DNA from: Paenarthrobacter sp. A20
Lineage (GTDB): Bacteria > Actinomycetota > Actinomycetes > Actinomycetales > Micrococcaceae
Direction of reading: 5' to 3'
Length of the DNA: 64,000 bases
Assembly: GCF_024168825.1 (NCBI RefSeq)
Contig: NZ_JALJWH010000001.1
Location: forward strand, 4,092,001 to 4,156,000
Shown here: positions 3,354 to 12,163 of the stretch, one piece after another
Layout: each line of letters starts with the position of its first letter
How positions within the stretch are numbered: position 1 is the stretch's first letter
Notes under the pieces: generated by a model
What the model was told of the DNA's origin: nothing
What the model saw: the letters and a program-made list of their open reading frames with translations, nothing else
The model's database searches: none
Translations under genes and position numbers: made by a program

Positions 3354-4661
3354 TTAGGCCGGCTTGGCTGCCAGCATGCGCTCCAGCGCAATCTTGGCGT
3401 TGTCCTGCACGGAGTCATCCACGGTGATGCGGTTGACGACACGTCCTTCCACGAGTTCCTCCAGGACCCAGGCGAGGTAGCCGGGGTGGATGCGGTACAT
3501 GGTGGAGCACGGGCAGATGACGGGATCCAGGCAGAAGATGGTGTGCTGCGGGTTTTCGGCGGCCAGACGGTTCACCATGTTGATCTCGGTACCGATGGCG
3601 AACGTGGTGGGTTCGGTGGCGGCCGCGATCGCCTTCTTGATGAAGTCGGTGGACCCGGCGGAGTCAGCAGCGTCCACGACCTCCATGGGGCATTCGGGGT
3701 GGACGATCACGTTGACGCCCGGGAAGTCCTGGCGGGCTTTCTCGATCTGGCCTACGTTGAAGCGCTTGTGGACCGAGCAGAATCCGTGCCACAGGATGAC
3801 CCGGGAGTCGAGCAGTTGCTGTTCGTCGTTGCCGCCCAGTTCCTTGCGCGGGTTCCACATGGGCATCTGCTCCAGCGGAACGCCGAGTGCTTTTGCGGTG
3901 TTGCGGCCCAAGTGCTGGTCGGGGAAGAACAGAACACGCTGGCCACGCTCGAAGGCCCACTCCAGGACCACCTTGGCGTTGGACGAGGTGCAGACTATGC
4001 CGCCGTTGCGACCACAGAAAGCCTTGAGCGCGGCGGACGAGTTCATGTAGGTGACAGGAATGACCGGTACGCGGCCCTTGGCGTCCGGTTCGGTGCCAAA
4101 GATCTCCTCGAGCTGCTCCCAGCACTCCTCGACGGAGTCTTCGTCTGCCATGTCTGCCATGGAGCAACCGGCGGCCAGGTTGGGCAGGATGACTGCTTGC
4201 TCCGGAGTGGAGAGGATGTCAGCGGTTTCCGCCATGAAGTGGACACCGCAGAAGATGATCGCTTCGGCGTCCGGCTTGGTCAGGGCCGCGTTGGCCAGCT
4301 GAAAGGAATCACCCACGAAGTCCGCGTACTGGATGACTTCGTCGCGCTGGTAAAAGTGCCCCAGGATGACGGCACGGTCCCCGAGCGTCGCTTTGGCCGC
4401 CCGAGTGCGGGAATCGAGTTCGGCGTCGCTGGCCTTCTTGTACTCCTCAGGCAACTGGCCCTGCCGAGGAGTAGCCATGGGTGCGACGTCAGCGCTGGAC
4501 GCCCCGGGCCCATACGCGGGGGCGCCGGCAACAGCTTCGGCGAGGTCATACTCCCATGGGCCCTTGGCCAGGGCCGGGCTGCACGTGGACCCCGCGCGGG
4601 AGAGGCCCTTCTCGGCTTCTTCGCGGGTGATCAGCTGGACGGCAGTGTTGACGCTGCTCAT
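3354..4661 (-). CDS. nadA: Quinolinate synthase A
   Basis: Condenses iminoaspartate with dihydroxyacetone phosphate to quinolinate on a [4Fe-4S] cluster. At 435 aa it is the long actinobacterial form, with about 85 extra N-terminal residues. Visible family motifs are AVILGHFYQRDEV, IIFCGVHFMAETADILS, the HPECPMEVV and DSAGSTDFI stretches, and CLDPVICPCSTMYRIHPGYL, which together supply the cluster cysteines. The ATG at 4661 overlaps the nrtR stop as ATGA, indicating coupled translation. Oxygen damage to the cluster would explain why a cysteine desulfurase sits in the same operon. Confidence 0.97.
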   Translation of the reverse strand: MSSVNTAVQLITREEAEKGLSRAGSTCSPALAKGPWEYDLAEAVAGAPAYGPGASSADVAPMATPRQGQLPEEYKKASDAELDSRTRAAKATLGDRAVILGHFYQRDEVIQYADFVGDSFQLANAALTKPDAEAIIFCGVHFMAETADILSTPEQAVILPNLAAGCSMADMADEDSVEECWEQLEEIFGTEPDAKGRVPVIPVTYMNSSAALKAFCGRNGGIVCTSSNAKVVLEWAFERGQRVLFFPDQHLGRNTAKALGVPLEQMPMWNPRKELGGNDEQQLLDSRVILWHGFCSVHKRFNVGQIEKARQDFPGVNVIVHPECPMEVVDAADSAGSTDFIKKAIAAATEPTTFAIGTEINMVNRLAAENPQHTIFCLDPVICPCSTMYRIHPGYLAWVLEELVEGRVVNRITVDDSVQDNAKIALERMLAAKPA

Positions 4662-5377
4662 GGTGTACTCCTGTTATCTGGCCCGAGGCCGGGCGTGCCG
4701 GTGAAGCGGTAGAGGCGTGGTGGACGGTGTTTCCCGCCCTGGAGGTATTCACCGGTCTCTTCGATTTCCGGTGTTGCCTTGACGTGTCGGCGGAAGTTCG
4801 CGGGATCGAGCTGGCGGTCCAGCACGGCCTCGTAGACTTCGCGGACCTGGGCGAGGGTGAAGAACTCTCCCAGCAGGTGGTAGGCGATGGACCCGTAGGC
4901 CATCTTGTTGCGGAGCCGCCACAGGGCGTAGTCCACGATTGCGTTGTGGTCGAAAGCGAGTTCGCCCAGCCGGTCTGCACGGAACCACCGCACATTTTCC
5001 GACTCATCAGCCAAAGCAGCTTCCGTGGGCTGCACCAGTGCCCAGTACACGATGGAGACAACACGCTGGGTGGGTGACCTGTGGAGGCCGCCAAATGCGT
5101 AGAGCTGCTCGAGGTAATGCGGCGTCAGCCCAGTGGTCTCGCGGAGGTTCCTGGAAGCCGCATCCTGGAGCGATTCGTCGTGGGCCAACGGACCGCCGGG
5201 GAGGGCCCACATGTCTTTGTACGGTTCCCGGATCCTCCGGACCAACGGCAGCCACAGCGTGGGGCGGCCGGACTTTTCACTGGGGCGAAGAGCGAAGATC
5301 ACCGTTGAAATTGCCAACGACGGCGGTGCGAGCCGCCTCTCGGCGACATTGGCTGAGTTGGTGTTCACGGCGTTCAC
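4658..5377 (-). CDS. nrtR: NrtR-type Nudix-related transcriptional regulator of NAD synthesis
   Basis: Probable repressor of the downstream nad genes. It has an N-terminal Nudix fold (about residues 20–160) and a C-terminal winged helix (about 165–225, containing LGEFFTLAQVREVYEAVLD). The Nudix box at GGPLAHDESLQDAASRNLRE is degenerate: RN stands where catalytic boxes have RE, and T replaces the last E. That fits a sensor rather than a hydrolase. NrtR proteins are known to bind DNA with the winged helix and to lose binding on ADP-ribose or NAD-like ligands. The start is GTG 5377; GTG 5368 is also possible and has the better SD (GAGG, 8-base gap). A matching palindrome lies 49–73 bases upstream. 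Confidence 0.9.
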   Translation of the reverse strand: MNAVNTNSANVAERRLAPPSLAISTVIFALRPSEKSGRPTLWLPLVRRIREPYKDMWALPGGPLAHDESLQDAASRNLRETTGLTPHYLEQLYAFGGLHRSPTQRVVSIVYWALVQPTEAALADESENVRWFRADRLGELAFDHNAIVDYALWRLRNKMAYGSIAYHLLGEFFTLAQVREVYEAVLDRQLDPANFRRHVKATPEIEETGEYLQGGKHRPPRLYRFTGTPGLGPDNRSTP

Positions 5378-5490: not shown

Positions 5491-5964
5491 TCACAAGGGC
5501 TTCGCCGCAGCTTCCATCAGCGGCAGTGTCCGGCCTTGGATGTGGCTGTTCAGGACAATCACCGACGAACACCGAACCACGGACTTCGTGGCGATCATGG
5601 CATCGAGCACCCGCTGCATGTCCGGGTTGGAACGCGCCGCAATCCGCACCATGAGGTCAGAGTTCCCTGTGACCGTGTGGACCTCGATGATTTCCGGGAT
5701 GGCGCCCAGGCTTTCGATAATGGCGTCATGTCCAATCTCCTGGGTGATGGTGACCGAACAGAACGCCACTACCGGGAACCCAAAATTGGCCGGATCGGGC
5801 TGCGGAACCCACGAACCAATGACTCCGTTTTCAATCATTCGGTCAATCCGGGACTGCACGGTAGCCCGGGCAACCCTGAGTACCCGGGATGCCTCCAGCA
5901 CTGAGGATCGCGGTGAATCCGTGAAGAAACGTACAATTTTTGCATCAAGCGCATCGACCAGCAT
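5491..5964 (-). CDS. Lrp/AsnC-family transcriptional regulator
   Basis: A 157-aa regulator with an N-terminal helix-turn-helix (about residues 5–55, SVLEASRVLRVARATVQSRIDR) and a C-terminal RAM ligand-sensing domain (about 65–145, with VHTVTGNSDLMVRIAA). Such proteins form octameric discs and respond to amino acids. I use ATG 5964, which has AGGA spaced 6 bases upstream; a TTG three bases earlier is the only longer option. It is divergent from the amino-acid permease at 6139, with the 2-oxoacid dehydrogenase cassette beyond, so it most likely senses the amino acid those genes import and break down. Confidence 0.92.
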   Translation of the reverse strand: MLVDALDAKIVRFFTDSPRSSVLEASRVLRVARATVQSRIDRMIENGVIGSWVPQPDPANFGFPVVAFCSVTITQEIGHDAIIESLGAIPEIIEVHTVTGNSDLMVRIAARSNPDMQRVLDAMIATKSVVRCSSVIVLNSHIQGRTLPLMEAAAKPL

Positions 5965-5993
5965 CAAAGTTCCTGTCCCCGGGGATCCTTACC

Positions 5994-6138: not shown

Positions 6139-7524
6139 ATGACAACGAAGTCCATCGCGGCTCCTGCGCCAACATCCGGCCTCGGCCATTCGCTGAAACC
6201 CCGCCAGCTGACCATGATGGGACTTGGCAGCGCGATTGGCGCCGGCCTCTTCCTCGGCTCCGGCGCGGGCGTACAGGCCGCCGGCCCGGCAGTCCTTATC
6301 TCCTACCTCGTTGCCGGCACGCTGATCATCCTGGTCATGTGGGCCCTTGGCGAGATGGCAGCCGCCAACCCCAACAGCGGCGCCTTCTCCGTGTACGCAG
6401 AGAAGGCCCTGGGCAAGACGGCCGGCGGTACCATCGGCTGGCTGTGGTGGCTTCAGCTGGTGGTGGTCATCGCGGCCGAAGCCATTGGAGCGGCCGGCCT
6501 GCTGTTCTCCATCTGGCCAGTCATCCCCGTATGGGTCCTTGCCCTGGTGTTCATGGTGGTCTTCACGGGCATCAACCTTGTGGGCGTCCGCAACTTCGGC
6601 GAGTTCGAGTTCTGGTTCGCCATCCTGAAGGTGGCAGCAATTGTCATCTTCCTGCTCATCGGCGCCGCCCTGCTCTTTGGCTGGTTGCCGAATGTCCCCT
6701 CCCCCGGATTCTCGGCCTTCGGCGATTTTGCCCCCAACGGCATTGGTGGCATCGCCGCTGCACTGTTCGTGGTGATCTTCGCCTTTGGCGGAACCGAGAT
6801 CGTCAGCGTCGCGGCCGCCGAAACCGAGAACCCGGCCCATAGCGTCGGCAAGGCCATCCGCACGGTTGTCTGGCGCATCCTGGTCTTTTACATCGGCTCC
6901 GTCTTCGTCATCGCAGCCGTCCTTCCCGTTGGTTCCGAAGGCCTGAAGTCTCCGTTTGCCGGAGTCCTGGACCTGGCCGGAATCCCCGGCGCCGGCGCAG
7001 CCATCACCCTGGTAGCCGTCGTCGCCCTGCTCTCTGCACTCAACGCCAACCTGTACGGCGCCTCCAGGATGGTCTTCTCCCTCTCGGAGCGCGGGGAAGC
7101 TCCCCGCTTCCTGTCCCGCCTCAGCGGCTCCAAGGTTCCCGTTGCCGCCGTCGGAATTTCGGTTGCCTTCGGCTTCATCGCCACCGTCCTTGAATTGCTG
7201 TTCCCGGAGAAAATCCTGCCGGCACTCCTGAACCTGGTGGGCTCTACCTGCCTGGTGGTCTGGGGCACCGCGCTGGTGTCGCAGTTCATTCTCCGCCGCA
7301 GGGCTGACAAAGAGGGCACGGAACTGCCCCTGCGCATGAAGGGCTTCCCCTTCCTCACCATCCTTGGCCTCATCCTGCTGGGCCTGATCCTGGTGGTCGG
7401 CTTTGCGAACCCCGAAAGCGCCGGGCAGCTGATTGGCACCTTCATCCTGATCCTCGCCATCGCCGCCGGGTGCTTCATCAACGCCAAGGCCAAGGCCTCC
7501 AGGCAGTCCATGCCCGTGGAGTAA
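6139..7524 (+). CDS. APC-superfamily amino-acid permease (AAT/GABA-permease type)
   Basis: Proton-coupled amino-acid importer of the inner membrane, 461 aa with about twelve hydrophobic segments. The first helix carries the family motif MMGLGSAIGAGLFLGSG, where the backbone glycines bind the substrate amino group, followed by PAVLISYLVAG and ALGEMAAANPNSGAFSVYA, typical of the AAT family that includes GabP, AroP and LysP. The start has AAGG about 9 bases upstream. A strong terminator hairpin follows, so it is transcribed separately from the dehydrogenase genes but lies beside them and the Lrp gene. The actual substrate cannot be read from sequence. Confidence 0.93.
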   Translation: MTTKSIAAPAPTSGLGHSLKPRQLTMMGLGSAIGAGLFLGSGAGVQAAGPAVLISYLVAGTLIILVMWALGEMAAANPNSGAFSVYAEKALGKTAGGTIGWLWWLQLVVVIAAEAIGAAGLLFSIWPVIPVWVLALVFMVVFTGINLVGVRNFGEFEFWFAILKVAAIVIFLLIGAALLFGWLPNVPSPGFSAFGDFAPNGIGGIAAALFVVIFAFGGTEIVSVAAAETENPAHSVGKAIRTVVWRILVFYIGSVFVIAAVLPVGSEGLKSPFAGVLDLAGIPGAGAAITLVAVVALLSALNANLYGASRMVFSLSERGEAPRFLSRLSGSKVPVAAVGISVAFGFIATVLELLFPEKILPALLNLVGSTCLVVWGTALVSQFILRRRADKEGTELPLRMKGFPFLTILGLILLGLILVVGFANPESAGQLIGTFILILAIAAGCFINAKAKASRQSMPVE

Positions 7525-7584: not shown

Positions 7585-7649
7585 ATGTCCAAATTGTACA
7601 AAGTGTTCCGTTCCAACTGAGCTGATTGCGCATGGCAGGATCCGGTGAC

Positions 7650-7662: not shown

Positions 7663-8709
7663 ATGACTACAGAACCCGTGCTGGCCGCCGTCGATGATGA
7701 CGCGGCCCCGCTCACCCACCATCAACTCCGTGAGTTGTACACGCTGATGGCAGCAGTCCGGCACCTGGACTCCTCGGCCGTCGCCTGGCAGCGTCAGGGC
7801 ATCATCCCTGGCTATGCGCCGGAGCTCGGCCAGGAAGCCGCGCAAGTAGGCAGCGGCTATGCCGTCGACCGAACCCGCGACTTCGTGTTTCCCACCTACC
7901 GGGAAATGGGCGTTGCCCGGGCGATGGGCCTGGACATGGTGGGCTATATGTCTACTCACAAGGCCACGTGGCACGGCGGCATGTACAACCCGCTTGAGTC
8001 CAGGTTCGCTCCCATCCAGGCGGTGGTGGCCGGTTCCGTTTTGCACGCTGTGGGCTGGGCCCATGGACAGACCCTCTCCGGGGCGCCGGAGATGGGCGTC
8101 GCCATGACGTACTTCGGTGACGGCGCTTCCTCCCAGGGTGACGTTCACGAAGCCATGAACTTCGCCGCGGTCATGAAAGCCCCCGTGGTCTTCTTCATCC
8201 AGAACAACGGCTGGGCCATCTCGGTCCCCACCGAACGCCAGGTTGCGGGCGGCTCTGTGGCCGCACGAGCAGCCGGTTACGGAATCCCCTCCCTGCAGAT
8301 CGATGGCAACGACGTGGTCGCTGTCTTCGAAGCCACACGTTCCGCTTTCGCGCATTGCCGCGCAGGGAACGGCCCCGTGGTGATAGAAGCGATGACCTAC
8401 CGTCGTGGCCCACACTCCACCGCCGACGATCCCGGCCGCTACCGCACCCTGGAGGAGGAACGCCTCGACGGCGGCGAGGATCCGCTGGAGCGCTTCAAAC
8501 AGCGGCTTCTCGCAGAAGGCGTAGCGGATGCAGCCTTCTTCGCGGAGGCGCAGCGCGCGGCCGAAGATGAAGAGGAAGCCATCCGTGCCGGCATCGCCGA
8601 CCTCGGCCCGCGCCCCGGCGCCGAGATGTTCAGCCTGGTCTTCCAGGAACCAACACCAGCCCTTCAATCCCAGGCCACCTCGTGGCGCGAGGAGTCCGAA
8701 CATGCCTGA
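7663..8709 (+). CDS. 2-oxoacid dehydrogenase E1 component, alpha subunit
   Basis: Thiamine-diphosphate-dependent decarboxylase subunit, 348 aa from ATG 7663. The TPP-binding motif runs from GDG at 152 to NN at 181–182 (GDGASSQGDVHEAMNFAAVM then FIQNN). The phosphorylation-loop region reads TYRRGPHSTADDPGRYR. With the beta subunit it decarboxylates a 2-oxoacid and transfers the acyl group to a lipoyl domain. Sequence resembles both pyruvate and branched-chain 2-oxoacid E1 alpha, so the substrate is open. The neighbouring amino-acid permease and Lrp regulator favour an amino-acid-derived oxoacid. Its stop overlaps the E1 beta start by 8 bases. Confidence 0.93.
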   Translation: MTTEPVLAAVDDDAAPLTHHQLRELYTLMAAVRHLDSSAVAWQRQGIIPGYAPELGQEAAQVGSGYAVDRTRDFVFPTYREMGVARAMGLDMVGYMSTHKATWHGGMYNPLESRFAPIQAVVAGSVLHAVGWAHGQTLSGAPEMGVAMTYFGDGASSQGDVHEAMNFAAVMKAPVVFFIQNNGWAISVPTERQVAGGSVAARAAGYGIPSLQIDGNDVVAVFEATRSAFAHCRAGNGPVVIEAMTYRRGPHSTADDPGRYRTLEEERLDGGEDPLERFKQRLLAEGVADAAFFAEAQRAAEDEEEAIRAGIADLGPRPGAEMFSLVFQEPTPALQSQATSWREESEHA

Positions 8710-9784
8710 GACCATCACCACTGATCGCAGCAGTGGAAACAGCACTGATACGGGCGCCGCAAACGTCCAGCACATGTCCATGCAGCAGGCCCTCAACCGC
8801 GCCCTCGACGAGGTTTTGGCCGAAAACCCCAAGACCGTCATCTTCGGGGAGGACTGCGGCCGGCTGGGTGGCGTCTTCCGTATCACCGATGGCCTGCAGG
8901 CAAAGCATGGCGAGGAACGCGTTTTTGACACCCCGCTTGCTGAATCCGGCATCCTGGGCATGTCGGTTGGCCTCGCAATGGCCGGCTTCCACCCCATTCC
9001 CGAGGTCCAGTTCGACGGCTTCGCCTACCCGGCCATCAACCAGATCGTTTGCCAGATCGCCCGGATGAACTACCGCAGCCGCGGAACCCTGCCCATGCCC
9101 ATCACATTGCGGGTCCCCAGCTTCGGCGGCATCCGCGCCCCTGAACACCATGGCGAGAGCCTGGAAGCGCTCTTCGCCCACGTCCCGGGCCTCAAAGTTG
9201 TCTCTCCATCAAACCCGCACGACGCCTACCATCTGCTCAAGTACGCTGCCACCAGGCCGGACCCGGTGATCTTCATGGAGCCGAAATCGCGCTATTGGCA
9301 GAAGGGACCCGTGGACGTCGCCAGTGCCGCCCAACGCCCAACGCACGACGCCGGAGTAGACGACGGCGGCAGCCTCACCGGCGCCCGCGTGGTGAGGGAA
9401 GGCCGCCACCTCACTCTGGTGGCATGGGGGGCCATGGTCTCCCGCTGCTTGCAGGTTGCCGAACTCGCAGCCGAGGACGGCATCGACGTCGAGGTCCTGG
9501 ATCTGCGCTGGCTGAAGCCAATTGATGCCGATGCGTTGGCGAGGTCCGTTGGGAAGACGCGGCGCGCCGTCGTCGTCCATGAGGCGCCCCTGACCTCCGG
9601 ACTTGGTGCCGAAGTCGCCCAACTCATCACACAAAGCTGCTTCGCAACCCTGAAGGCGCCCGTGGAGCGGGTGACCGGATTCGACGTTCCCTACCCCTCC
9701 GGCGACCTGGAGGACGAATACATCCCCAACATCGACCGCATCCTCTTTGGGATCCAACGCGTACTGGAGTACCGCCGTGGCTGA
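8702..9784 (+). CDS. 2-oxoacid dehydrogenase E1 component, beta subunit
   Basis: Transketolase-like beta subunit of the E1 heterotetramer, 360 aa from ATG 8702 (MPETITTDRS), which overlaps the E1 alpha stop by 8 bases. It shows the family order: ALDEVLAENPKTVIFGEDCG, VFDTPLAESGILGMSVGLAMAG, EVQFDGFAYPAINQIVCQIA, the PSNPHDAYHLLKYA domain junction and the C-terminal half with DLRWLKPIDADAL and VVHEAPLTSGLGAEVAQLI. The glutamate of FGEDCG is the residue that activates TPP in this family. The first 25 residues are low-complexity and variable. Confidence 0.94.
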   Translation: MPETITTDRSSGNSTDTGAANVQHMSMQQALNRALDEVLAENPKTVIFGEDCGRLGGVFRITDGLQAKHGEERVFDTPLAESGILGMSVGLAMAGFHPIPEVQFDGFAYPAINQIVCQIARMNYRSRGTLPMPITLRVPSFGGIRAPEHHGESLEALFAHVPGLKVVSPSNPHDAYHLLKYAATRPDPVIFMEPKSRYWQKGPVDVASAAQRPTHDAGVDDGGSLTGARVVREGRHLTLVAWGAMVSRCLQVAELAAEDGIDVEVLDLRWLKPIDADALARSVGKTRRAVVVHEAPLTSGLGAEVAQLITQSCFATLKAPVERVTGFDVPYPSGDLEDEYIPNIDRILFGIQRVLEYRRG

Positions 9785-10106
9785 AATTTCCTTCCCCCTT
9801 CCCGACTTGGGCGAAGGCCTGATCGAGGCGACAGTGCTGGATTGGCTGGTGGAACCTGGCCAGCAGGTGGAACGCAACCAGCCGATAGTGGAGCTTGAAA
9901 CCACCAAGTCGGCCCTCGAATTGCCCAGCCCGCAGGCGGGTAAAGTGGTGCGTATCCACGGGGCGCCAGGTGACACCATCAACGTTGGCGAACCGCTGAT
10001 CGTGTTCGAGGTTCCGGATGATACTGCCGGTATCGTGGGCACTGTTCCAAAGGACGAAGCACCCAAGCGCCGGGTCCGCCTGAGCGCCGTACTCGATGAG
10101 GACTGA
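9777..10106 (+). CDS. Stand-alone lipoyl-domain carrier protein (E2 lipoyl domain without catalytic domain)
   Basis: A 109-aa protein from GTG 9777, overlapping the E1 beta stop by 8 bases. Residues 1–78 are a complete E2-type lipoyl domain starting ISFPLPDLGEGLIEA, with the lipoylated lysine K44 in ELETTKSALELP. About 30 residues of charged linker (PKDEAPKRRVRLSAVLDED) follow, then the stop. Ordinary E2 proteins continue into a peripheral-subunit-binding domain and an acyltransferase domain with a HxxxDG motif; neither is present here or in the next frames. The next gene is an alpha/beta hydrolase, the architecture of AcoC (lipoyl plus hydrolase fold) but split in two. The coding is intact, so this looks like a real design rather than decay. 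Confidence 0.9.
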   Translation: MAEISFPLPDLGEGLIEATVLDWLVEPGQQVERNQPIVELETTKSALELPSPQAGKVVRIHGAPGDTINVGEPLIVFEVPDDTAGIVGTVPKDEAPKRRVRLSAVLDED

Positions 10107-10107
10107 C

Positions 10108-10938
10108 ATGATGACCGGCAGGCACACCATGGAACAGCACAGGCACACAGTAGAGGGCACGGACCCCGGGCTGTCCGTGGAAGTCCATGAGCCATCCACG
10201 GACGCCGGCCTGCGGCCCGTCCTGCTGATCCACGGCTTTTCTTCCTCCACGAAACTGAACTGGGTGGATAGCGGCTGGATCACCACCCTTCAGGATGCAG
10301 GCCGTCGCGTGATCACCGTAGACCTGCCAGGCCATGGCAGGAGCCACTCCCCCGAGGACCTGGATTCGTACACGCCCAGCCGCATACGCGCTGACCTCCT
10401 CCAGATAGTGACCGACGCCGGAGCCCGGCCACTGCGCGATGGTGACCCGTCCACGGGACTGGACGTCATTGGCTACTCGCTCGGCTCGAGGCTGGCTTGG
10501 GAGTTCGGCGCCACCCAGCCGGACCTTGTCCACCGCATCGTCCTGGGTGGACCCAGCTCAGCGGATCCGTTGGCAGCTTTCGACCTCGTCGCTGCGCAAC
10601 GGCACTTGGCCGACGGCACGCCCATTGAGGACGCGTCCACGGCCGGATTGCTGAAGATGGCACAGATGCTTCCCAGCAACAACCTCTTCTCCATGTTGTC
10701 GCTCATTGAGGCCATCAAGGGGGAACCTTTCGATCCTGCCGAAGCTGCCCCGCATATGCCCGTCCTGCTCGTTGCCGGCGAAAAGGATGAAAGGGCAGCC
10801 ACCATGCCGGAGCTCGCCTCGATTGCGGGCAGGCATGGCGGTTTGGTGGAAACGTTGGTCATTCCAGGGCGCACCCACACCAACGTCATCACCAGCCGGG
10901 CGTTCAAGGAAGCTGCTGTCGAATTCCTTGGGGTGTAG
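10108..10938 (+). CDS. Alpha/beta hydrolase associated with the 2-oxoacid dehydrogenase cassette
   Basis: A 276-aa alpha/beta hydrolase with the oxyanion motif HGFSSS (42–47), the nucleophile elbow GYSLGS with S124, and a likely triad of S124, D227 (GEKDER) and H257 (GRTHTN). I use ATG 10108, which has GAGG spaced 6 bases upstream; ATG 10096 lies inside the lipoyl gene and ATG 10111 is also possible. The gap to the lipoyl-gene stop is one base. In acetoin dehydrogenase AcoC proteins this fold is fused to the lipoyl domain and assigned the acyltransferase step. Here it may transfer or hydrolyse the acyl group held on the carrier. The function is inference from context. Confidence 0.8.
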   Translation: MMTGRHTMEQHRHTVEGTDPGLSVEVHEPSTDAGLRPVLLIHGFSSSTKLNWVDSGWITTLQDAGRRVITVDLPGHGRSHSPEDLDSYTPSRIRADLLQIVTDAGARPLRDGDPSTGLDVIGYSLGSRLAWEFGATQPDLVHRIVLGGPSSADPLAAFDLVAAQRHLADGTPIEDASTAGLLKMAQMLPSNNLFSMLSLIEAIKGEPFDPAEAAPHMPVLLVAGEKDERAATMPELASIAGRHGGLVETLVIPGRTHTNVITSRAFKEAAVEFLGV

Positions 10939-10994: not shown

Positions 10995-11408
10995 TCAGCG
11001 GGCCAGCCGCTCCGCGTTGAGGCTCATTCGTTCCAACACGCTCAGGGCCATGGCGTACTCATCGATGCCGATGCCCATGGAAAGGTCCTGACGCGCCGCT
11101 TCCACCAACCGCTGGGCTTCGTGGTATTTTTCCCGTCCACGGTCACTCAGGACCAGCCGGTCATCAATCATGGTGATCATTCCGCGGCCCACGAGGGCTG
11201 CCAGTTCCCTCTCCCGCATCCGGATGTCGTTTCCCCACAACGGCTGCAAAGACTCCTCGAGCTGGTCCGGGAGCATGGCGCCCTCGGACAGGACACTGAG
11301 GGTATGCCATTGGCGCCGGCTGAGCTTGATCTTGGCAAGGATGGTGTCCAGTTGGGCTTCCAGTGCGGCGTCGAGCCTCTTGATCCAGTATCCGATGGGC
11401 TTGTTCAC
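10995..11408 (-). CDS. MarR-like winged-helix DNA-binding protein
   Basis: A 137-aa protein from GTG 11408. It has a helical N-terminus (IGYWIKRLDAALEAQLDTIL), then a winged helix: LSRRQWHTLSVLSEG, recognition helix in IRMRERELAALVGRGM and wing MIDDRLVLSDRGREKYHEA. The layout is that of small MarR-family regulators seen often in Arthrobacter. It is divergent from the phosphoribosyltransferase gene with 92 bases between, so that gene is a possible target. The region 10939–10994 downstream holds nothing recognisable. Confidence 0.75.
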   Translation of the reverse strand: MNKPIGYWIKRLDAALEAQLDTILAKIKLSRRQWHTLSVLSEGAMLPDQLEESLQPLWGNDIRMRERELAALVGRGMITMIDDRLVLSDRGREKYHEAQRLVEAARQDLSMGIGIDEYAMALSVLERMSLNAERLAR

Positions 11409-11500
11409 ACGCCCATGCTTTCAGCGGAGACGCTACCGGGCAAGGTCTGGACGGTAGGCTTGGAACTGCAACGACTTACGTGGAAGTGGAGCAGATGGGC

Positions 11501-12163
11501 ATGCGTTTCAAGGACCGTGCGGAAGCCGGTCGACGCCTGGCTGAAGCCCTCCCGCAACTCAGGGAAAAGCCGGACACCATCGTCTTGGGCCTGGCACGTG
11601 GAGGAGTCCCCGTGGCCGCCGCGGCAGCGGCCGAACTGTACCTGCCCTTCGGCGCGGTCCTGGTCCGCAAGCTCGGCATTCCGGGTCGCGACGAGACGGC
11701 TTTTGGGGCACTGGCATGGTCTCAGGGCGACGTCCTCCGGATCGTCAACAAGCCACTGAGGGACCTCGTCCTCGCCCACGGCATCTCCCAATCCGCGCTC
11801 GATGCCGTGGAAGCACACGAACGTTCCGAGCTCCTCCGGCGCGCGCAGAACTACCCGGGCACCAGGCATGACCTCCGTGGGAAGACCGTAGTGCTGGCGG
11901 ATGACGGACTTGCCACTGGTGCCACCATGCGGGCCGCCGTGGAAGCAGTTCGTTCTGCCGGCGCACGCACCGTAATAGCCGCAGTACCGGTTGCCTCGCT
12001 GGAAGCCTCGACGTCGCTGGCACGGGTGAGCGATTTCGTCATGGCCCTGCACACGCCGGGTAAGTTCCATGCCGTGGGCGCCTTCTACGAACACTTCGGT
12101 CAATTGTCCGATGCCGACGTGGTGAGCCAGTTGGAAGGCGCCACAGCCGGCGGGCGCAAGTAA
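11501..12163 (+). CDS. Phosphoribosyltransferase-family protein
   Basis: Type I PRTase fold, 220 aa. The PRPP-binding loop is VVLADDGLATGATM, and the N-terminal part (FKDRAEAGRRLAEALPQL, then VLGLARGGVPVA and VRKLGIPGRDETAFGALA) matches the group of predicted PRTases found near stress or regulatory genes, not a named salvage enzyme. I choose ATG 11501 because GGAG lies 9 bases upstream; ATG 11495 and GTG 11480 are in frame. The base substrate is unknown, and some members of this group act as regulators. Confidence 0.8.
   Translation: MRFKDRAEAGRRLAEALPQLREKPDTIVLGLARGGVPVAAAAAAELYLPFGAVLVRKLGIPGRDETAFGALAWSQGDVLRIVNKPLRDLVLAHGISQSALDAVEAHERSELLRRAQNYPGTRHDLRGKTVVLADDGLATGATMRAAVEAVRSAGARTVIAAVPVASLEASTSLARVSDFVMALHTPGKFHAVGAFYEHFGQLSDADVVSQLEGATAGGRK

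Follow-up and report, generated by a model that had tools for sequence, protein, structure and literature searches.

The cassette described here encodes both E1 subunits of a 2-oxoacid dehydrogenase, a free lipoyl protein and an alpha/beta serine hydrolase, contains no E2 core, and in a sample of the Nocardiopsis family its hydrolase occurs exactly in those genomes that carry this E1. 2-Oxoacid dehydrogenases are three-component machines whose E2 core produces acyl-CoA. In the cassette the position of this core is occupied by the hydrolase gene. The parts are known but the conserved module is, as far as could be seen, undescribed, and a literature search mostly outside subscription journals found no published account of an E2-less lipoyl/hydrolase module.

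Gene content and layout of the cassette

All four genes lie on the forward strand of the window, i.e. the whole analyzed stretch of 64,000 nucleotides from Paenarthrobacter sp. A20. The gene for E1 alpha (348 aa, 7663..8709, with a GTG at 7645 also in frame) matches E1_dh (PF00676) with 258.7 bits, and that for E1 beta (360 aa, 8702..9784) matches Transket_pyr (PF02779, 144.5 bits) and Transketolase_C (PF02780, 135.7 bits). They are followed by the gene of a lipoyl carrier protein of 109 aa with a GTG start (9777..10106; Biotin_lipoyl, PF00364, 66.8 bits) and by that of the hydrolase (276 aa, 10108..10938; Abhydrolase_1, PF00561, 65.9 bits). Overlaps of 8 bases each join E1 alpha to E1 beta and E1 beta to the lipoyl gene. 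The hydrolase ATG (10108) follows the lipoyl stop after a single base; with the in-frame ATG at 10096 as its start, the hydrolase gene would overlap the lipoyl gene. Biotin_lipoyl is the sole Pfam family over cut-off in the carrier, which shows neither a subunit-binding nor a 2-oxoacid_dh domain, and the window has no E2 core (PF00198), since all six places in the genome that match this family lie elsewhere. An earlier note on this DNA had described a four-gene cassette of overlapping or nearly touching genes with no catalytic E2, a lipoyl lysine K44 and an S124/D227/H257 triad, and Pfam searches and alignment bear out each of these points.

On its scores the window E1 is assigned to the branched-chain/pyruvate type. 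Both subunits exceed their Pfam cut-offs, and E1 alpha reaches 381 bits with TIGR03181, under the cut-off of 411, versus 183 bits with TIGR03182, which we take to be the model under which acetoin E1s fall. In BLAST the window E1 alpha is 44% identical to an E1 alpha of its own genome that adjoins a full E2.

The lipoyl lysine of the carrier is expected at residue 44 (codon 9906..9908, forward strand) in the motif ETTKS. It is kept in 108/108 tallied carriers, and the tail GIVG.VP....RRVRL (10029..10082, forward strand) in 107/108, where the tally comprises only proteins with PDLGEGL, found in 108/136 loci, and counts some genomes twice. In ten aligned carriers the tail residues G85, I86, V87, G88, V90, P91 and R98-L102 are invariant. 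Among the own proteins searched, a full E2 has the lipoyl domain most similar to the carrier (57% over 70 aa). With another own E2 the BLAST alignment includes the tail as far as residue 101 (39% over 127 columns). A tail-like stretch follows the lipoyl domain also in E2s of the own and a sister genome (PLVGSGPKADAVKRRARKR in L107 and VLVGYGVKAGASKRRPRK in L223), of which MAFFT aligned only part with the carrier tail. The tail thus suggests, short of proof, that the carrier is a cut-down E2.

The hydrolase has the alpha/beta fold and a Ser-Asp-His triad, namely S124 (10477-10479), D227 (10786-10788) and H257 (10876-10878), all on the forward strand and invariant in 52 homologues. Its structure was predicted with confidence (mean pLDDT 91.2), and in the fold comparison small esterases, lactonases and dehalogenases tie as matches, MenH of S. 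aureus being found at Foldseek rank 39. Identity with MenH was rejected, as TIGR03695 gives 51.4 bits (44.7 in the genome search) versus a cut-off of 208.55. No AcoC structure is among the 50 matches listed in either fold comparison, which excludes nothing.

Elsewhere in the genome, three of the six PF00198 places are full E2s, each adjoined by genes for both E1 subunits. The other three are a protein with two lipoyl domains, taken as AceF, a frame of 1302 aa that combines E1 and E2 domains and is taken as OdhA, and a bare 269-aa E2 core. PF00676 likewise has six places, two of which have no adjoining E2, i.e. the window cassette and C1:3258322.

Inheritance of the hydrolase with and without E1

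In the following, absence means absence at the thresholds used and among the capped number of candidates that were scored in each genome; genomes of related strains do not count as independent cases. The same gene order, which the earlier note had proposed to look for in actinobacterial genomes, recurs in the Nocardiopsis family and in the Arthrobacter group (58/80 hydrolase loci, these being the best 80 of 197 found and thus leaning toward close relatives), so that chance is excluded. One relative with the complete cassette (L035) is the harmless soil strain Paenarthrobacter aurescens TC1.

In a class sample of 394 genomes E1 beta (E ≤ 1e-120) was detected in 22, all of which have a hydrolase homologue (E ≤ 1e-20) in the same orientation and no more than about 1 kb away. 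Twenty of these genomes belong to the Nocardiopsis family (f24, including Nocardiopsis and Streptomonospora), one to family f4 (genus g13, with three hydrolase matches) and one is the own genome. The hydrolase occurs in 45 genomes of this sample, and 23 of them (17 from f4, four from the own family and two from f27) are devoid of this E1 beta.

Of 200 sampled genomes from the Nocardiopsis family, 43 carry an E1 beta at E ≤ 1e-110. The hydrolase was detected at E ≤ 1e-35 in 37 of the 200, and these coincide exactly with the genomes whose E1 beta reaches E ≤ 1e-120. Both genes are adjacent on one strand in 37/37, with the lipoyl gene between or beside them in every case (19 + 18). The six remaining E1 betas (51-54% identical, about 1e-111) adjoin a full E2 and have no hydrolase match. 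When 121 loci were searched for the E2 core, only these six E2-linked loci matched, and the other 115 (including 25/37 of the hydrolase-bearing Nocardiopsis-family genomes, and some loci without E1) had none. The claim that a hydrolase in the position of the E2 core is paired with this E1 is supported in both samples. In the E1 beta tree 33 hydrolase-linked rows, to which the window protein belongs, make up one side of a branch with support 94/90 (not starred) that is present in 94% of 200 bootstrap trees, and because of this a single origin is the simplest reading for the hydrolase-linked E1 betas. The strict pairing in the Nocardiopsis family together with the single E1 group indicates that this hydrolase belongs to this E1 and carrier.

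The hydrolase tree places the E1-linked members in two clades, one of the Nocardiopsis family (20 rows, support 95/99) and one of the Arthrobacter group with G195 and G297 (support 100/98). E1-free hydrolases are closer to the Arthrobacter clade than those from the Nocardiopsis family are, with weak support, and a joining of both E1-linked groups was not rejected (AU p 0.16). When G195 (L142, L115, L158) is compared with the window, E1 beta is 79% and the hydrolase 52% identical, which means that the hydrolase evolves much faster than the linked E1.

Within the genus sample (198 genomes, 187 of them good; E1 beta at E ≤ 1e-120) the hydrolase was found in 197 (187/187 good) and E1 beta in 108 (102/187 good), and the sole genome without a hydrolase match is 68% complete. 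There are thus 85 good genomes with the hydrolase and no E1 beta at this threshold. A relocation of the E1 genes was considered and rejected, as the search covered whole genomes and gave no match at E ≤ 1e-120 in 90/198. Of the 80 hydrolase loci mentioned above 58 have full E1 genes (L095 being counted here despite partial best E1 matches), 21 have none and one lies on a cut contig. The lipoyl gene is full in all 58 E1-bearing loci, whereas in the 21 E1-less loci it is full in 4, covered in part in 7 and missing in 10, with frame breaks in several. The hydrolase gene is full in 21/21 E1-less loci and its triad is kept in all of them.

On the hydrolase gene tree, reconstructed without L104 (hydrolase end broken) and L072 (cut contig), the E1 state changes at least seven times, and five of these changes are forced by well-supported branches. 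They are read as losses of E1, because lipoyl remnants are present in 11/21 E1-less loci. Purifying selection on the hydrolase is equal with and without E1, dN/dS amounting to 0.067 in E1-less as well as in E1-bearing pairs, which were hand-picked from the hydrolase tree with some rows recurring; L057-L058, listed among the ten E1-less pairs, is in fact mixed, and its omission leaves the ratio at 0.067. Since E1 and carrier were repeatedly lost while the hydrolase remained intact with unchanged dN/dS, the unloading of this carrier cannot be its only role, and the Arthrobacter-group hydrolase is, judged from these comparisons, selected for something independent of this E1 and carrier. In L096 the E1 genes are missing, but an intact, orphaned lipoyl gene that includes the tail (about 5667-5993) still adjoins the likewise intact hydrolase; the loss of E1 was probably recent there.

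Upstream of the cassette the window encodes an Lrp/AsnC-type regulator (5491..5967, reverse strand; PF01037, 52.9 bits) and an APC-family amino-acid permease (6139..7524, forward strand; PF00324, 337 bits), the best NCBIfam match of the latter being the GABA permease with 420 bits, below the cut-off of 678. These two neighbours had been regarded as hints to an amino-acid-derived substrate. The Lrp gene indeed follows the E1 and lipoyl genes, being full in 56/58 E1-bearing versus 2/21 E1-less loci, and weak Lrp relatives (about 30-34%; 55% in L142) are located upstream in 7/8 cassette loci compared. The permease, in contrast, is independent of the module (full in 57/58 E1-bearing and 21/21 E1-less loci). 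In two Nocardiopsis-family regions the neighbours, judged by their sequence starts alone, resemble a transporter and a thymidine phosphorylase, which is uninformative, and a deduction of the substrate from the neighbours was abandoned.

Several further genes surround the cassette. A 137-aa protein 3' of the hydrolase (10995-11408, reverse strand) is full in 27/58 E1-bearing loci and has no Pfam or NCBIfam match at E ≤ 1e-5. It is followed by a gene with a phosphoribosyltransferase domain (11480-12163, forward strand) that is present in 21/21 E1-less and 39/58 E1-bearing loci. At 4658-5377 (reverse strand) a Nudix protein with NrtR winged-helix domain is encoded (PF21906, 69 bits), likely a regulator of NAD metabolism. 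In L141, from a genome of the same family, the hydrolase is found beside a gene whose start resembles this Nudix gene, and there is no Lrp, permease, E1 or lipoyl match near it.

Possible fates of the acyl group on the carrier

We tentatively favor a reading in which a free lipoyl shuttle, cut from an E2, is unloaded by a broad serine hydrolase. E1 would decarboxylate a 2-oxoacid and put the acyl group on the lipoyl-lysine of the free 109-aa carrier, which would represent the front part of an E2 minus its subunit-binding and catalytic domains. The hydrolase would remove the acyl group, either hydrolysing it off or passing it on to CoA or a different acceptor, and the carrier would be re-oxidised by a housekeeping E3. 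We infer these catalytic steps as well as the acceptor, the substrate, the lipoylation and the E3 of the module. Unloading by the hydrolase is suggested by the place of its gene, the missing E2 core and the triad, and the conservation of the carrier lysine and tail and of the triad, together with the restriction of the E2 core to the six E2-linked loci, speaks for it. Against it stand the 23/45 hydrolase genomes of the class sample without E1 beta and the fold of a general esterase/lactonase. The persistence of the hydrolase without E1 implies an additional function, and a wider substrate range, as proposed here, would explain its retention in the Arthrobacter group where E1 and carrier are absent. 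That the module is even a CoA-free 2-oxoacid dehydrogenase, in which the hydrolase would release the acyl group to water and thereby yield free acid, CO2 and NADH, a thioesterase of unrelated fold having taken the place of the E2 acyltransferase in a single event, we consider unlikely.

The strongest rival of the shuttle unloaded by the hydrolase is an E2 acting in trans, which is possible, if somewhat doubtful. Here the acyltransferase core of another complex (one of the three full E2s, the AceF-like protein or OdhA) would move the acyl group from the free carrier to CoA, and the hydrolase would catalyze another step of the pathway, e.g. the opening of an ester, lactone or acyl-CoA. The genome offers five E2 cores besides the bare one, the carrier is without a subunit-binding domain, and the life of the hydrolase independent of E1 fits a metabolic hydrolase. 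There is also a published precedent in corynebacteria, where OdhA possesses a transferase domain and is supplied in trans with the lipoyl groups of AceF (PMC10415282). The bare 269-aa core was ruled out as general partner of the window cassette: at E ≤ 1e-50 it is found in 4/198 genus genomes, and of these only the own genome also has the window E1 beta. Moreover, an E2 in trans does not need the strict one-to-one pairing of E1 beta and hydrolase in the Nocardiopsis family.

This pairing also bears on the view that the hydrolase is a conserved neighbour of unrelated or loosely related function with which the E1 and lipoyl genes merely travel along. In the Arthrobacter group much would agree with it, as the hydrolase is a core gene there with or without E1 and at equal dN/dS, and the Lrp, E1 and lipoyl genes vanish together while permease and hydrolase stay. 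A bystander would not be expected to behave as in the Nocardiopsis family, where the hydrolase is missing in 163/163 genomes without E1 beta at the thresholds used, and we regard this view as distinctly improbable. Both the pairing and the persistence without the cassette would be covered if the hydrolase had an editing role and cleared this carrier and the lipoyl proteins of other complexes of acyl groups that are stalled or wrong, other lipoyl complexes remaining after the loss and an E2 in trans being the productive one. Such a role is very improbable, as hydrolase homologues occur in just 45/394 class genomes at E ≤ 1e-20 and, to our knowledge, no editing enzyme of such kind is known for lipoyl domains. 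Finally, that the single-chain E2 of an acetoin dehydrogenase (lipoyl domain plus hydrolase) was split into two separate genes is hardly credible and was rejected, since the cassette has the domain pair of the AcoC model NF011457 (carrier 51.3 bits, hydrolase 40.5 bits) but misses its cut-off of 307, 13 other places of the own genome score equally or better on the hydrolase part (103.7 to 39.6 versus 39.4 bits, the hydrolase thus ranking 14th and being not specially related to AcoC), and the E1, whose alpha subunit favors TIGR03181, is of the other type and closer to the own E1s beside full E2s (43-50% in pairs) than to the acetoin-like one (35%).

Thus, the first reading of this DNA as a split AcoC-like system with an unloading hydrolase survives in part: the E2-less cassette and its co-inherited hydrolase hold, the descent from AcoC does not, and an exclusive role in unloading is weakened by the 85 good genomes without E1 beta and the equal dN/dS. 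A co-inherited module that is devoid of the core and has a hydrolase at its position would mean that the lipoyl shuttle is separable from CoA or else that a single E2 acts on several free carriers. The operon is small and readily testable, its hosts are harmless soil bacteria, and the repeated losses of E1 and carrier with the hydrolase kept represent natural knock-outs for comparison.

Comparison with known lipoyl systems

The glycine cleavage H protein is a small free lipoyl shuttle too, whose chemistry differs from that of 2-oxoacid dehydrogenases, and it is not among the Pfam families matched by the carrier. Within the own genome the second cassette without adjoining E2 (C1:3258322; L106:8970-11287) encodes both E1 subunits along with a free lipoyl protein of 90 aa. 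As in the window a free lipoyl protein follows the E1 genes and no E2 directly adjoins, but the E1 alpha is acetoin-like (TIGR03182, 351 bits), no hydrolase is adjacent, and the bare E2 core (L105:4449-5258) is located about 20 kb away in the same region (C1 about 3237000-3259300). Second cassette and bare core perhaps form together another complex with split parts.

Like the window cassette, AcoC (NF011457) brings together a lipoyl domain and an alpha/beta hydrolase fold. Its domains are fused in one chain, whereas those of the window are separate, accompanied by an E1 of other type, and include a hydrolase without special relationship. In the accessible part of one report (PMC6595428) AcoC is termed acetyltransferase and the word hydrolase is absent.

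OdhA and AceF of corynebacteria, as described in PMC10415282, resemble the window in having carrier domain and catalytic partner on separate chains, but their partner is a transferase domain and their lipoyl donor a full E2. The branched-chain/pyruvate complexes with full E2 share with the cassette E1 alpha and beta of the same type, a related lipoyl domain, and the order of E1 alpha, E1 beta and a lipoyl-bearing gene. They differ in their subunit-binding domain and acyltransferase core, instead of which the window has the hydrolase gene.
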